DNA from: Sphaerisporangium sp. TRM90804
GTDB taxonomy: Bacteria; Actinomycetota; Actinomycetes; Streptosporangiales; Streptosporangiaceae
Assembly: GCF_029846175.1 (NCBI RefSeq)
Contig: NZ_JARWAC010000027.1
Span: forward strand, 124,001-188,000
Reading direction: 5' to 3'
DNA: 64,000 nt
A program made the translations under genes and the position numbers. Below, in pieces: positions 21,165 through 26,360 of the stretch (positions within the stretch are counted from its first letter, which is position 1; each line of letters begins with the position of its first letter). The notes below the pieces were generated by a model. It searched no databases. It was not told where the DNA came from and was given only the letters and a program-made list of their open reading frames with translations.

Positions 21165-22733
21165 ATGTCCGGCAGACAGCACAAGGAAACGGAGTTAGCG
21201 CGGCGAACCCGGGCGCGCGGCTTGGCGGTAGGGCGCGGTATGGCTCGAATCGCCGAGGAGATTTACGAGGCGTGTGGCCCTCATTTTGGGACATCACGCA
21301 TTAAATCTCACCGTCTGGCTCATGGCATCGCCCTCGCCGACGTCGTCGAGCAGGTGCGTGCGCTGTTCGAACGCGACGGCAAACCGGCTCCCGGCATCGG
21401 TGAAACGCTTGTGAGCGCTTACGAGAGCGGGTTGAAGAGGCCTGGGCCGGAGTACCTCCACTACTTGTGTTCCGTCTACCGAGTCGAACCGGCCGCCCTC
21501 GGTTATGACGGCCCGTGCATCTGTGGCCACGGTCACCGCATTCCGGGCGTCGTCCGGGGCGGCATCCAGGAGACCAAACCCGACACTTCCCCCGACTCAC
21601 GCGAGCTGTGGATCAAACCGCTCGACGTCACGTCAGTGGACGGGGGTGAGGAGGACGAGAACGTGCTACGTAGGACCCTGCTGGCGGTGATCGCGGGTGG
21701 TGCCGCGGTGCCGCTGACCCCGCCCGTCATGGGAGCCGCCGAGCACTTTCGGCGGCGCATGGACGAAACGCTCGTGTCGACCACGGTCTCCCCGGCCATG
21801 CTCGACCACTGGGAAGAGGCCGCGGCCGCCTTCGGCCGCCAGTACATGAACACGCCTCCGATGCGCCAACTGTGCGACGTGCTTCTGGAGTTCAGCACGG
21901 TCCGCCAGGCGATGGAGAACCATCAGCCCATCGATCTCCAGGAACGGCTCTGCGCCCTGGCGGCGCGGCTGTCCGGCCTGGCCGGCATCATCATGATCGA
22001 CCTCGGCGACCAGCGGCTCGCCCGGTCCTTCTTCCGCACCTCGCGCACCGCCGCCGACGAGACGGGCGATCGCGCCCTGCGCGCCTGGGTCACGGCCCGC
22101 GAGTCCCTGGTGCCGCTCTTCTACGGCGACCCCCGCGAGGCGCTCACCCTGGCCAAGAAGAGCCGCGACCTCGCCGGCCAGACCCCCTGCGCGGCGAAGG
22201 CCATGGCCCCGGTGGTGGAGGCCCGAGCGCTGTCCATGCTCGCCAACTCCGGGGGCAAGAAGGACGTCGTCGACCAGGCGAAGCGGGCGCTGTCCCGGGC
22301 GCGGGCCGCGTTCGCGCAGATGGCCCCGGCCCAGCAGGAGGACACGGTGTTCGGCTACACCGAGCGCCAGCTCTACTTCCACCAGGGCGACGCGCTGGCC
22401 AGGCTGGGGCAGACCATCGAGGCCGACCTGATCCTGGAACAGGCCCTGGAGAAGTACGAGGGTGATCTGCTCGACCAGACCCTCATCCGCTTCGACCGGG
22501 CGCACTGCCGGTTGCTGGAGGGCGACGGCGACGAGGCGCTGAGGCTCGGCGTGGACGCGGTGACCCGCGTCGGCGAGGGCTTCCGCACCGACATCATCCT
22601 GCGCCGTGCCCACGACCTGGTGAAGGCCATCGAGGACAGATGCGGCGACCTTCCCGGCCTCGGTCCCCTCAAAGACCTGCTCACCGCGCCGCCGCCCGCG
22701 GCCACGATGACACCCTCGGAGGCGGATGTATGA
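21165..22733 (+). CDS. XRE-family transcriptional regulator with TPR-like C-terminal region
   Basis: A 522-residue regulator. Residues about 40-110 form a helix-turn-helix of the XRE type (IKSHRLAHGIALADVVEQVR ... ETLVSAYESGLKRPGPEYLHYLCSVY). A linker with CICGHGH and a small hydrophobic patch (TLLAVIAGGAAVPLTPPVMGA, about residues 168-190) follows. Residues about 230-500 are alpha-helical repeats of TPR character (ARSFFRTSRTAADETGDRALRAWV, LYFHQGDALARLGQTIEADLIL). Such proteins in actinomycetes often sense a peptide or small ligand through the TPR part. ATG 21165 follows GGGAGGGG. Its stop overlaps the start of a GNAT gene (ATGA), so the two are made together. Confidence 0.85.
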   Translation: MSGRQHKETELARRTRARGLAVGRGMARIAEEIYEACGPHFGTSRIKSHRLAHGIALADVVEQVRALFERDGKPAPGIGETLVSAYESGLKRPGPEYLHYLCSVYRVEPAALGYDGPCICGHGHRIPGVVRGGIQETKPDTSPDSRELWIKPLDVTSVDGGEEDENVLRRTLLAVIAGGAAVPLTPPVMGAAEHFRRRMDETLVSTTVSPAMLDHWEEAAAAFGRQYMNTPPMRQLCDVLLEFSTVRQAMENHQPIDLQERLCALAARLSGLAGIIMIDLGDQRLARSFFRTSRTAADETGDRALRAWVTARESLVPLFYGDPREALTLAKKSRDLAGQTPCAAKAMAPVVEARALSMLANSGGKKDVVDQAKRALSRARAAFAQMAPAQQEDTVFGYTERQLYFHQGDALARLGQTIEADLILEQALEKYEGDLLDQTLIRFDRAHCRLLEGDGDEALRLGVDAVTRVGEGFRTDIILRRAHDLVKAIEDRCGDLPGLGPLKDLLTAPPPAATMTPSEADV

Positions 22734-23242
22734 CACTGCTGCTCAGGCGGTATCGCTGGTCGGATATGGACGCCGTCTGGGCCCTCCACCGCACGTGTCT
22801 CGCCCAGGTCGGCATCGTCGACGGCGACGGCGTCTACTACGAGGACGACATCCCGCGCATCAACGAGGTCTACCTGGCCGACGGCGGCGAGTTCCTCGTC
22901 GGCGAGGTGGACGGCCCGGAGCTCGTGGCCATGGGCGGGCTGCGGCGCATCGACGACGAGACGGCCGAGATGTGCCGCCTGAGGGTCCATCCCGACCATC
23001 AGCGGCGCGGGTACGGCAAGCTCGTGCTCGACGCGCTGGAGGAGTCGGCGAGACGGCTGGGCTACGCCCTGCTCCGCGGGGACACCACCCTGCGGCAGGG
23101 GGCGGCCATGGAGTTGTATCGCAAGGCGGGGTGGCGTGAAGTCCGCCGGGAGGAGCGGGGTGGACTTGTCGTTCTTTACGGTGAGAAGGAGCTGATCTCA
23201 CACCCCGCACCGCATGCCGCTCGTTCCACTAATATCGGCTGA
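22730..23242 (+). CDS. GNAT family N-acetyltransferase coupled to the XRE regulator
   Basis: A single-domain GNAT enzyme of 170 residues. The N-terminal strand LLLRRYRWSDMDAVWALHRTCL, the central MCRLRVHPDHQRRGYGKLVLDALEESARRLGY (acetyl-CoA loop QRRGYG) and ELYRKAGWREV near the end are diagnostic. ATG 22730 overlaps the regulator stop (ATGA), which fixes the start and implies translational coupling. The acetyl acceptor is unknown; the coupling suggests it may act on, or be controlled with, the regulator's ligand. The last 15 residues are less conserved-looking. Confidence 0.88.
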   Translation: MTLLLRRYRWSDMDAVWALHRTCLAQVGIVDGDGVYYEDDIPRINEVYLADGGEFLVGEVDGPELVAMGGLRRIDDETAEMCRLRVHPDHQRRGYGKLVLDALEESARRLGYALLRGDTTLRQGAAMELYRKAGWREVRREERGGLVVLYGEKELISHPAPHAARSTNIG

Positions 23243-23334
23243 AAAACCTACAATCTCGGAATCAAAGCTTGCGGATGATGATATCTCGCGAATAATTAGG
23301 TCTTTGTAGCTGAAGACCTAGGGGAGATGACACG
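23243..23334 (+). promoter_or_regulatory. AT-rich leader with hairpin directly before the micro-ORF Shine-Dalgarno
   Basis: This stretch is distinctly AT-rich for the window (GAAAAACCTACAATC, GAATAATTAGG) and must hold the promoter of the micro-ORF/TPR operon. A perfect 8-bp stem TAGGTCTT/AAGACCTA (23297-23304 and 23313-23320, 8-base loop) ends exactly where the Shine-Dalgarno GGGGAGA (23321-23327) begins. It could be an operator or an RNA hairpin acting on translation. Confidence 0.55.
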
Positions 23335-23409
23335 ATGAAGAAGATCGTCGTCCGCAAGCCCGGAGTCGCCCACCTCACAGGCGCGGCCAGCGCGATCCAC
23401 AAGGGGTGA
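23335..23409 (+). CDS. 24-residue basic micro-ORF coupled to the TPR protein
   Basis: ATG 23335 to TGA 23409 encodes 24 residues, starting MKKIVVRKPG and ending SAIHKG. It has five Lys/Arg, two His, no Cys and no acidic residue. An excellent Shine-Dalgarno (GGGGAGA) sits seven bases upstream, and the stop overlaps the GTG of the large gene (GTGA), so ribosomes reading the peptide can pass straight on. The first half is strand-like and basic, the second small and polar (HLTGAAS). It may be a signalling or precursor peptide, a leader peptide controlling the downstream gene, or only a coupling device. I cannot assign it to a named RiPP family. Confidence 0.65.
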   Translation: MKKIVVRKPGVAHLTGAASAIHKG

Positions 23410-25424
23410 CCGCCCGCGCCGGGCATCTCTGGATCCACGGAGGGCTGGCGCGGGACCGCCAGAGCATGCTCACCCGGATGGACCTCCCTTCGCCGGTGCT
23501 CGCCTTCGGCGCCCACCGGCGCCTGCGAGGGCCCTACACCTTCGGCGGATCCCTGCTCGGCGCGCTCGTCCCGGCCACGCTGGAGCATCGCTCCGGCGTG
23601 GCCGCCGAGCACGACATCGAGATCAGGGCGGTGGCGCCCGGTCTGCGCGACCGGGTCGGGGTCCGCCGTCCCCCGCTGGAGACGAGCCTCCCGCCCGAGG
23701 AGCGCATCCTCGTGCCCGCCCCGCGCCGGACGTTGCGGATCGCCAATGGAATCGCCGAATTCGTGCGCGACTGCGGCGTGCCCCTCGGCACCCTCGTCGT
23801 TCACGACGTGCACGAGGCCGACGCGACCGACCTGGAACTCCTGGCGACGCTTCTGCGTCGTTTTCCCACGGAGAGTTTGACAATTGTGGTGTGCTCCCGT
23901 AACGCGCCGCTTGATGGTTTTGAGGGGCGAAATATTGCGGCCGAATTAACCGCTTCGGAGGAACCGGAAAACCTCGCGCACCGTTATGTCGCCTCCGACG
24001 GCACGTCGGACGACCCCCGGGTCGTCGCCGCGTACGAGGCGCTGCCCGCGGCCGGGCGCGCGTCCCTGCACGACCGCCGCGGTGACGAGCTGGCCGCCAC
24101 CGGCGACCCCTCCTGGGCGCTCGGCGCCATCCCCTTCCACCGCGAGCACGGCACCGATCCCTCGGGCGCCGGCGTCGAGTCGCTCTGGGCCGCGCTCGAC
24201 CACTGCGTGAGCGAGGGCTTCCTGGCCGCGGCGGCCGACCTCGGCCTGCGCGCTCTGCGGCTGGCGGCCCCGGGGGCCGGACGGTGGTGGAACCTCACGC
24301 AGGCGACGGCGACCGCCCTCGCCGGCATCGGGCGCCGGGAGGAGGCACGCGAGCTGTACGAGCGGGCACGCCGCGCGAGCGTCGACCCCGAGGTGCACTC
24401 GGCGTCCGCCTACGGCGCGGCCATGCTCGACGCCCGGCACCCCGACCCCGCACGGCGTGACCTCGGGCGCGCCGAGGGCTGGATCAACGAGGCCGTCGCG
24501 ATCTCCACCCTGCTGCCCGACCCGCCGGTCCGCGCGTTCAAGCTGGGCTTCGACCTCAACGGCAAGGCGCTCATCGAGATGCGCCGCGGTCGCGCCGACC
24601 GTGCCCTGTCGCTGGTGGAGTCCGCCATCGACCTGGCCGAGACCGACCTGCCCTCGGGTCGCCACCCGATCCACCGCATGGTGCTGCGTGCCAACCGCGC
24701 GCAGCTCCTGGGCAGGCTGGGACGGCACGACGAGGCGCTGGGCGAGATGGACGCCGCGGTCGCCGTGGACCCCGCCTACCCCGACTACCGTCTCGACCGG
24801 GGCAACCTGCTGTTCCGCATGGGGCGGCTGGACGAGGCGCTCGCCGAGTACGACGCGGCGATCGGGCTCAGCCCGCCCCTGCCCGAGGGCTACTACAACC
24901 GCGCCCAGCTCAGGCTGGCCACGGGGGACCTGACGGGGGCCAGGGCCGACCTCGACCACGTCCTGGAGCTGGACCCCGGCTATCTGGACGCCTACATCAA
25001 CCGGGCGGGCCTGCTGCTGGAGCTGGGACTGGACGGGCAGGCGCGCCAGGACGTCGCCGCGGGCCTCGCCATCGCCCCCGGCGACCCCCACCTGTCGTGC
25101 GTGCTGGGCCAGTTGGAGAGCGCCGCGGGCGGCGTCGAGCAGGCGCGGGCCGCGTTCGACGCCGCGGTGGCCGGCGCCCCCGGCCTGGCCGCGGCCTGGG
25201 CGAGCCGGGGAGTCCTGTGCTACGAGACGGGAGACCTGCAGGGCGCCGTGGCCGATCTCACCCGCGCCGTGGAGCTCCAGGAGGACGCCGCGCACTACTA
25301 CAACCGCGCCGTCGTGCTGAAGGAGCTCGGCAGGGTCGCAGAGGCCGTGGACGATCTGCGCCGCGCGCGCGCCCTCGCCCCCGAGGACGCCGACATCGCC
25401 CGGGCCCTCGACGCGGTGAGCTGA
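23406..25424 (+). CDS. TPR-repeat protein with degenerate STAND-like ATPase region
   Basis: A 672-residue cytoplasmic protein. Residues about 20-190 look like a worn AAA/STAND region: no Walker A lysine motif is visible, but GTLVVHDVHEADATDLELLATLLRRFPTESLTIVVCS resembles the Walker B and following strand of LuxR/AfsR-type ATPases. Residues about 265-670 are tetratricopeptide repeats, clearest from residue 420 on (RAQLLGRLGRHDEALGEMDAAVAVDPAYPD; GNLLFRMGRLDEALAEYDAAIGLSP; NRAVVLKELGRVAEAVDDLRRARALAPED). No DNA-binding domain is present. GTG 23406 overlaps the micro-ORF stop, so its synthesis depends on the peptide. A peptide-binding or scaffold role is plausible but unproven. Confidence 0.8.
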   Translation: MTARAGHLWIHGGLARDRQSMLTRMDLPSPVLAFGAHRRLRGPYTFGGSLLGALVPATLEHRSGVAAEHDIEIRAVAPGLRDRVGVRRPPLETSLPPEERILVPAPRRTLRIANGIAEFVRDCGVPLGTLVVHDVHEADATDLELLATLLRRFPTESLTIVVCSRNAPLDGFEGRNIAAELTASEEPENLAHRYVASDGTSDDPRVVAAYEALPAAGRASLHDRRGDELAATGDPSWALGAIPFHREHGTDPSGAGVESLWAALDHCVSEGFLAAAADLGLRALRLAAPGAGRWWNLTQATATALAGIGRREEARELYERARRASVDPEVHSASAYGAAMLDARHPDPARRDLGRAEGWINEAVAISTLLPDPPVRAFKLGFDLNGKALIEMRRGRADRALSLVESAIDLAETDLPSGRHPIHRMVLRANRAQLLGRLGRHDEALGEMDAAVAVDPAYPDYRLDRGNLLFRMGRLDEALAEYDAAIGLSPPLPEGYYNRAQLRLATGDLTGARADLDHVLELDPGYLDAYINRAGLLLELGLDGQARQDVAAGLAIAPGDPHLSCVLGQLESAAGGVEQARAAFDAAVAGAPGLAAAWASRGVLCYETGDLQGAVADLTRAVELQEDAAHYYNRAVVLKELGRVAEAVDDLRRARALAPEDADIARALDAVS

Positions 25425-25429
25425 CGGCC

Positions 25430-25882
25430 TCAGCCGGCGCGGTTGGTGAGCAGGGCGACGATCCGCGGCAGGCCGGGCGGCTCGACCGGCTCGGGCAGGG
25501 CGGCGATCTGCGCGGGCGTGAACCAGCCGTGGCCCTGGTAGGCGTCCAGCTCCTCGCCGGTGAACCGGGCCGGGGCCACCTCCGGGGGCTCGGCGAAGCG
25601 CGCGAGGTAGAAGGGCTCGACCTTGACGTAGTGCACGCCCAGCCAGTGGAAGTCACGCGGCACGGGGACCCACACGTCGTCCACCGCCTCGCCCGGCAGG
25701 CCGGTCTCCTCGGTCAGCTCGCGGCGGGCGGCGTCCAGCGGCGCCTCGCCGGGGTCGGTGCCCCCGCCCGGCGGCTCCCAGAAGACGACGCCGCTCACGG
25801 AGTCGCGCCACCGCAGCAGCAGCACCCGCCCCAGCCCGTCCACGCACACCACGCGCGCCGCGGGCCGGTCGCTGATCGTCAC
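25430..25882 (-). CDS. NUDIX hydrolase
   Basis: A 150-residue pyrophosphohydrolase of the NUDIX type. The full Nudix box is present at about residues 38-60: GGTDPGEAPLDAARRELTEETGL fits G-x5-E-x7-R-E-U-x-E-E-x-G-U. The N-terminal AARVVCVDGLGRVLLLRWRD and FWEPPGGG strand are typical. The substrate (an NDP-X compound) is not predictable. GTG 25882 has GGTGAGG upstream and starts the conserved domain; the in-frame extension above it overlaps the neighbour and looks non-coding. It follows the 149-residue hypothetical gene by 28 bases, and its stop faces that of the TPR gene five bases away. Confidence 0.9.
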   Translation of the reverse strand: MTISDRPAARVVCVDGLGRVLLLRWRDSVSGVVFWEPPGGGTDPGEAPLDAARRELTEETGLPGEAVDDVWVPVPRDFHWLGVHYVKVEPFYLARFAEPPEVAPARFTGEELDAYQGHGWFTPAQIAALPEPVEPPGLPRIVALLTNRAG

Positions 25883-25910
25883 CGGCGCCTCACCACGGCC
25901 GCGGCGTCCC

Positions 25911-26360
25911 TCACGTCTCCGGCCGGCCGGGCTCCCTGGACGGGTCGTCGGGCCCGGAGTCGTCGGGGATGGGGAGGTCGGGCCAGGTGTTGGCGTTGAT
26001 GATCTGCCAGAAGTCGTCCGGACGGCGCGCGGACTGGCGCATGCCCTCCTGCTGCAGCTCGGCGGCGATGGCACGCTGCTCGGGGTAGGCGCCCTTCATC
26101 GCGTCGAGCCACTCGACCGGGCTGACCCCCGCCCGACGCGCCGCCGTGATCGCCATCTCGGCGTACTCCTCGGGTGTCGCGTTGAGGACCCACCCGGTGC
26201 GCTCCATGAGCTGATCGTCGGTCAGCTCGCCACGCTGCCAGGCGATGGCCTCGGGCAGGTGCTCGGCGACGAAGACCGCGTTCACGTATCCGGGGAGCAT
26301 CGCCGCCAGCGCGACGGCCGCCCGCTTCTCTCCCGGTGACAACCTGTCCCACTTCAGCAC
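25911..26360 (-). CDS. Hypothetical protein, 149 residues
   Basis: Not recognised. The sequence is mostly alpha-helical: KWDRLSPGEKRAAVALAAMLPGYVNAVFVAEHLPEAIAWQRGELTDDQL then EEYAEMAITAARRAGVSPVEWLDAMKGAYPEQRAIAAEL. It ends in a disordered acidic and proline-rich tail (about residues 122-149). There is no signal peptide or membrane span. GTG 26360 is preceded by GAGAGGAG eight bases upstream, a good Shine-Dalgarno. It is upstream of the Nudix gene by 28 bases on the same strand, so an operon is likely, but this does not reveal a function. Confidence 0.7.
   Translation of the reverse strand: MLKWDRLSPGEKRAAVALAAMLPGYVNAVFVAEHLPEAIAWQRGELTDDQLMERTGWVLNATPEEYAEMAITAARRAGVSPVEWLDAMKGAYPEQRAIAAELQQEGMRQSARRPDDFWQIINANTWPDLPIPDDSGPDDPSREPGRPET

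Follow-up and report, generated by a model that had tools for sequence, protein, structure and literature searches.

What does a gene of only 24 codons do when it overlaps the start of a gene for a large tetratricopeptide repeat (TPR) protein? This question is raised by a locus of Sphaerisporangium sp. TRM90804, a member of the Streptosporangiaceae with an 8.3 Mb genome. The locus lies in the window analysed here, a stretch of 64,000 nucleotides (nt) from contig NZ_JARWAC010000027.1 (positions 124,001 to 188,000, forward strand). An earlier model-made inspection of this DNA (hereafter the sequence-only reading) had pointed to a 24-residue open reading frame (ORF) that is preceded by a Shine-Dalgarno sequence and whose stop codon overlaps the GTG start of a 672-residue TPR protein, and all of these elements are present in the sequence. 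We find that the micro-ORF is a genuine gene under selection, that it is paired with the TPR gene throughout much of its bacterial family, and that the window pair appears to be a reduced derivative of a peptide-maturation cluster not described before. No description of the peptide-TPR pair was found in the open-licence PMC literature. Its central features are listed below in window coordinates; A1 denotes the window's own type of locus.

23335..23409, plus strand: gene for the 24-amino-acid (aa) peptide MKKIVVRKPGVAHLTGAASAIHKG, identified by its substitution pattern, conservation upstream of TPR homologues and co-occurrence with them
23320..23326, plus strand: Shine-Dalgarno sequence AGGGGAG of the micro-ORF, 8 nt 5ʹ of its ATG, read from the sequence
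23406..23409, plus strand: GTGA overlap in which the TGA of the peptide gene meets the GTG (23406) of the TPR gene, retained, in the frame of the TPR profile, at 50 of 53 orthologous A1 loci
23406..25424, plus strand: gene for the 672-aa protein, a P-loop-less, AAA_16-like N-terminal domain followed by a TPR superhelix, based on Pfam, an alignment and a structure model

The peptide gene is selected and paired with a single partner

The 53 A1 loci comprise 44 distinct DNA alleles that encode 33 distinct peptides. Nei-Gojobori counts over all pairs of the 44 alleles yield a ratio of nonsynonymous to synonymous substitution rates (dN/dS) of 0.30 for peptide codons 1-20 in frame, whereas the two shifted frames yield 1.29 and 1.37. 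The micro-ORF is therefore under selection at the protein level. A lack of coding constraint had been named beforehand as grounds for abandoning the proposal, and the constraint is clearly present, which confirms the 24-codon ORF as a genuine selected gene. Searches of Pfam and NCBIfam returned no family for the window peptide, and NCBIfam returned none for four of its relatives. A gene of this size is very short for routine gene annotation.

A search profile made from the N-terminal part of a 17-row alignment of the TPR protein matches 141 of the 297 genomes sampled from the family, as well as 19 of 394 sampled from the class, 16 of which belong to this same family. A DNA pattern for peptide codons 1-10 occurs in 126 of the 297 family genomes, and the reversed pattern is absent from the matches listed for these genomes. 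All 126 pattern-positive genomes are among the 141 that carry the TPR gene, and the pattern is missing from all 156 genomes without that gene, where co-occurrence is counted per genome and not by the distance between the pattern site and the TPR gene. We also examined 97 individual TPR loci (two of which, L011 from the same-genus genome G007 and L032 from Sphaerisporangium corydalis, are the same sequence, with identical TPR proteins). An upstream ORF on the same strand with a leader score of at least 35 is present at 91 of them, compared with a score of 27 for the best unrelated ORF; L079, at exactly 35 the lowest of the 91, is a doubtful case. Four other loci (L068, L075, L076 and L169) have a divergent or N-terminally extended version of the peptide that was recognised by eye, and at L179 the peptide is encoded on the opposite strand, approximately 2.5 kb from the TPR gene. 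Both the conserved small ORF that the sequence-only reading expected beside TPR homologues and its idea of a peptide with a dedicated TPR partner are thus upheld by a conserved pair with near-perfect co-occurrence.

The partner carries an apparently degenerate ATPase domain

Pfam assigns multiple TPRs to residues 385-661 of the window protein. Its AAA_16 match is weak (E 0.069) and covers the Walker-B end alone (residues 110-160), and 15 of 17 members of the TPR family match AAA_16 at E values up to 1, the best at 5e-6. Inspection by eye found no Walker A motif (GxxxxGK[ST]) after the first strand in any of the 17 aligned rows. These observations agree with the earlier claim of a Walker B-like strand without a P-loop, and they suggest that the N-terminal domain (approximately residues 1-247) is AAA_16-like and that its ATPase part is degenerate. 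A fold search with the structure model bears almost solely on the TPR part, which fills its list of matches. Two segments of the domain can be located precisely.

23517..23540, plus strand: family-specific motif RRLRGPYT (residues 38-45) of the apparently degenerate NTPase domain, defined by alignment, with R39, R41, G42 and Y44 invariant in 17 of 17 rows
23790..23837, plus strand: Walker-B-like strand and start of the following helix, LVVHDVHEADATDLEL (residues 129-144), within the AAA_16 match, with residues 129-133 forming a strand in the structure model

An AAA_16 domain followed by TPRs is the architecture of LAL/STAND-type regulators. The window protein resembles these in its AAA_16-like segment with a Walker-B-like strand and in the TPRs that follow, but differs in that it lacks a P-loop, carries the motif RRLRGPYT, and has no DNA-binding domain or helix-turn-helix (HTH) that Pfam could find. 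Membership among the P-loop AAA/STAND NTPases was rejected on the missing Walker A motif, and PADLOC has no family for the protein.

The pair occurs in three layouts

A total of 83 loci were classified by layout, and the same stretches underlie the neighbour counts given below. Loci with a match to a protease profile were labelled B (29 loci), those among the rest whose peptide ends in IHKG were labelled A1 (40 loci), and the remainder were labelled A2 (14 loci). In A1, a 24-mer ending in IHKG is coupled directly to the TPR gene. In A2, the peptide usually has 24 aa, may end in SPKHVG or SPRHGI, for example, and terminates some 10-200 nt 5ʹ of the start of the TPR profile (1.6 kb in L083), and two of the 14 loci have no peptide on the same strand. 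In B, a peptide of 25-33 aa is followed by the protease protein (396-437 aa at 14 mapped loci) and then by the TPR gene. The source genome carries both an A1 copy, in the window, and a B copy at G000:C35.

The type B protease protein is predicted to combine a recognition element (RRE) of the kind used by pathways for ribosomally synthesised and post-translationally modified peptides (RiPPs) with a site-2 protease, and no Pfam or NCBIfam family matches it above cut-off. Its profile finds no match in A1 or A2 stretches, or anywhere in five TPR-positive genomes (G095, G190, G025, G296 and G312).

Type B peptides have a basic, conserved N-terminal half (MKKIxVRKxGxVRLT) and a variable C-terminus. 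Among 21 distinct peptides, with four that score below 35 excluded, 12 of residues 1-15 have an entropy of less than 1 bit (positions 5, 9 and 11 vary more), and values reach 1.9-3.0 bits over the last ten. A conserved leader joined to a variable core, next to a protein with a predicted RRE, is the arrangement expected of a RiPP precursor. Type B therefore appears to follow RiPP logic, and it looks like an undescribed RiPP-like cluster. A1 appears to depart from this logic, in that no variable core is evident and all 33 distinct peptides have the C-terminal IHKG; this invariance follows partly from the definition of A1, yet the A1 rows also group together in the tree of TPR proteins. Cysteine is found in 28 of 29 B peptides, but in only one of the 33 distinct A1 peptides.

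Some B loci show further variations. Two tandem peptides, ending in QPLYFCYE and QPLYVCYQ, are encoded 1.4-1.5 kb 5ʹ of the TPR profile start at L150 (G522); tandem precursor genes are common among peptide natural products. A peptide with a poly-cysteine end, CYCYGCCCCGGRAAI, is encoded upstream of the protease gene at L088 (G049). On the Streptomyces plasmid NZ_CP109482.1 (L068, 6505-6678), an annotated hypothetical protein of 57 aa (WP_329538487.1) carries a B-like peptide at its C-terminus, and the true start of this protein may be internal.

A tree of TPR proteins, built by a quick method from 94 rows (L079, L173 and L179 excluded), places the A1 rows on one side of a branch with a support of 99 and the B rows likewise with a support of 96. 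When this tree is rooted at its midpoint, A1 and A2 emerge from within B, with weak support at the root forks (64). The class sample has B loci in four families, and the Streptomyces plasmid carries one as well, whereas type A was found only in this family among the samples taken. Together with the midpoint tree, this distribution makes it more likely that the A line lost the protease than that B gained it, with the root itself unproven.

Type B resembles known peptide-maturation systems in part

The daptide peptidase MpaP is described in PMC10036551 as an RRE fused N-terminally to an intramembrane site-2 protease, and the B relatives are predicted to share this two-domain architecture beside a short precursor. 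A distant relative (L204) matches the daptide family NF041824 (daptide_HExxH) with an E value of 1.6e-5, far below the cut-off, and the type B protease protein itself gives no match to this family. The daptide precursor ends in Thr, whereas no type B or A1 peptide does, and membership among the daptides, whose clusters also carry MpaB/C/D/M tailoring genes, was rejected on the basis of this terminus. Type B also differs in having an additional TPR/pseudo-AAA protein, and the window pair differs in having no protease. A second likeness is to the epipeptide protease EpeP and the pearlin proteases TglG/TmoG, M50 enzymes of RiPP pathways (PMC10885120), since type B would likewise bring a membrane M50 protease to bear on short ribosomal peptides. 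The main text of that review contains neither ‘TPR’ nor ‘tetratricopeptide’.

Neighbouring genes and upstream DNA

The pair is flanked by the following genes and elements.

21165..22733, plus strand: NsdA-family TPR-like regulator, a conserved neighbour (NF053720, 150.8 bits, cut-off 75)
22640..23242, plus strand: GNAT acetyltransferase, a conserved neighbour (PF00583), whose true start is probably near 22730
25430..26074, minus strand: NUDIX hydrolase, a convergent flanking gene (PF00293)
23269..23296, plus strand: promoter-like element TTGCGG-N16-AATAAT, conserved in DNA upstream of A1 loci
23298..23319, plus strand: inverted repeat AGGTCTT-N8-AAGACCT between the promoter-like element and the Shine-Dalgarno sequence, seen in rows of the genus

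The sequence-only reading had described an adjoining XRE/TPR regulator and acetyltransferase and had raised the possibility of a small regulatory island. The acetyltransferase is indeed a GNAT enzyme and the regulator belongs to the NsdA family with weak TPR matches, but the ‘XRE’ label is not confirmed, as Pfam finds no HTH in it. A1 loci occupy a fixed chromosomal place beside these two genes, with an NsdA-family match in 39 of 40 stretches and a GNAT gene in 37, in addition to a NUDIX gene in 17. The island holds in this positional sense alone, because NsdA-family and GNAT genes occur in none of the 43 A2 and B stretches, which lie elsewhere, and because three of 11 TPR-negative genomes searched (G011, G036 and G278) carry an NsdA homologue with an adjoining GNAT gene and no pair. 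An intrinsic link between the pair and NsdA was therefore rejected, and the pair probably entered an older neighbourhood.

Types A2 and B have neighbours of their own, for which the Pfam names of the flavin-enzyme, SARP and major facilitator superfamily (MFS) genes were taken from example genes. Flavin_Reduct-like genes are present in 10 B stretches (five of these match by construction, as members used to build the profile) and flavin mononucleotide (FMN)-oxidoreductase genes in 10 others (two by construction). These two unrelated families, neither of which is found in every B stretch, together account for 20 of 29 B stretches and none of 54 A stretches. In 15 of 29 B stretches (two by construction), which form one group in the tree, the cassette has a divergently oriented AfsR/SARP-like neighbour. 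MFS genes occur in eight of 14 A2 stretches (three by construction), directly 3ʹ of the TPR gene in five, compared with one of 40 A1 and none of 29 B stretches. Apart from these loci, L206-L212 encode distant RRE and M50-like proteins with an upstream gene that resembles ThiF/E1; two of the latter were scanned, and one exceeds the TIGR03882 cut-off. These are possibly another undescribed RiPP-like group.

Upstream of the pair, the pattern TTGnnn-N14..20-AATAnT was searched in 50 distinct A1 upstream 80-mers and was found with a spacer of 15-17 in 40 of them, versus 13 of 2500 mononucleotide shuffles. The element at 23269..23296 is called promoter-like for this conservation alone, because a scan for sigma-70 consensus promoters gave no match there. 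A loose pattern for the arms of the inverted repeat matches 10 of 12 rows of the genus, and inspection by eye did not reveal the repeat in other genera; it is a putative, and unproven, operator or 5ʹ hairpin. Rfam identifies no RNA family within 22900-23700.

A proposed function for the pair and its alternatives

The existence of a branch with an RRE and site-2 protease shifts the reading of the pair from a pheromone and its receptor to a RiPP-derived cassette. We tentatively propose, at slightly less than even confidence, that the pair is a unit of two genes descended from a RiPP-like cassette of an undescribed kind, and that the A1 peptide is an intracellular ligand or subunit that docks on the TPR protein. 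In type B, a precursor with a basic N-terminal half and a nearly always Cys-bearing end would be held by the TPR protein and recognised by the RRE of the protease protein, after which the membrane protease would trim or export it and, in many clusters, a flavin enzyme would modify it. In A1, the protease would be gone and the peptide C-terminus fixed as IHKG, and stop/start coupling would match the supply of peptide to that of the TPR protein. This peptide would be a dedicated ligand or small subunit whose basic half, shared with type B, docks on the TPR protein. Across the three layouts, no partner other than the TPR protein recurs, and no portion of the peptide other than its N-terminal half; binding between the two is thus the simplest inference from the comparison. 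We likewise infer each step of the type B pathway, and the role of ligand rather than exported product. A bolder version is somewhat unlikely: that A1 is a domesticated RiPP pathway, in which a precursor deprived of its protease and variable core is now the invariant intracellular ligand of its own maturation scaffold, and that type B is a new RiPP class.

Several loci weigh against the proposed unit. No peptide was found at L084, genome G002 is pattern-positive through a chance site while its own peptide starts with GTG, and the B peptide of L068 from Streptomyces is the only one without Cys. In G095, the A1 place (L220, G095:C4:342000-352000) keeps most of the peptide, but its stop has changed (IHTGWRAASD) and the 10-kb stretch lacks a TPR gene. 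This is a natural loss of the TPR partner in a genome that has an A2 pair elsewhere and hence counts as TPR-positive in the co-occurrence tally.

The main rival to a ligand or subunit holds that the A1 peptide is still the precursor of a RiPP or other peptide natural product, modified by the adjoining GNAT enzyme, for example, or by enzymes encoded elsewhere, and exported with the TPR protein as its carrier. We judge this to be unlikely, even though A1 is kin to type B, a GNAT gene adjoins 37 of 40 A1 loci, and an MFS gene lies directly 3ʹ of the TPR gene at five of 14 A2 loci and anywhere in the stretch at eight. The A1 C-terminus is invariant, the protease profile is unmatched in A1 and A2 stretches and in the five genomes searched throughout, and the three genomes with NsdA and GNAT genes but no pair indicate that the GNAT gene probably belongs to the older neighbourhood.

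Marginally less probable again is a purely structural role, in which the TPR protein cannot do without the peptide as a small subunit or chaperone and the peptide takes no part in signalling or product formation. Strict pairing, coupling through the GTGA overlap and conservation over the full length would all suit such a role, which nevertheless leaves the variable ends, RRE and protease of type B unexplained and fits poorly with A2 and B peptides that are uncoupled from the TPR gene and lie up to 2.5 kb away.

Quorum sensing of the RRNPP kind, in which the TPR protein or the NsdA-family regulator would sense a pheromone that has been secreted and then re-imported, is improbable. As set out in PMC10075063, RRNPP systems have a propeptide of 10-100 aa, an adjacent receptor gene and a TPR receptor of 250-500 aa, and the propeptide is secreted through SEC or PptAB, with a basic N-terminus and then a long hydrophobic region. 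The window pair has a small peptide of 24 aa, adjacency through the GTGA overlap and a TPR partner, and an NsdA-family regulator is near 39 of 40 A1 loci. However, the partner is 672 aa long, and membership was rejected on this length; it also has a pseudo-NTPase (AAA_16-like) domain and no HTH found by Pfam. The A1 peptides (n=33) lack any long hydrophobic stretch, their 10-residue hydropathy having a median of 0.88 and a maximum of 1.52, NsdA is absent from A2 and B stretches, and the last residues are invariant across species, unlike a communication code. The analogy with RRNPP systems drawn by the sequence-only reading thus fails as a statement of membership. Finally, a mere leader acting in cis on TPR translation, by coupling or attenuation, an idea invited by the widely preserved GTGA overlap, is very improbable and was rejected in its pure form, as largely refuted by the dN/dS of 0.30 and by the recurrence of the same N-terminal sequence in layout B, where a protease gene separates the peptide and TPR genes.

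Implications

In a large family of actinobacteria, a stringent pattern detects this short peptide gene, which is bound up with a single partner protein, in 126 of 297 sampled genomes. As some sister clades have the protease and others lack it, the steps of the system can be separated. If the more speculative view of a domesticated pathway is correct, type B would be a class defined by a TPR/pseudo-NTPase substrate holder together with an RRE/site-2 protease, often with flavin chemistry. If the RiPP-derived reading that we favour is true, the B loci would offer a new type of RiPP-like cluster for expression and a way to ask whether a TPR protein can substitute for an RRE, or help it, in holding the precursor, and the A1 pair would be a case in which a biosynthetic peptide has turned into a conserved cellular ligand.
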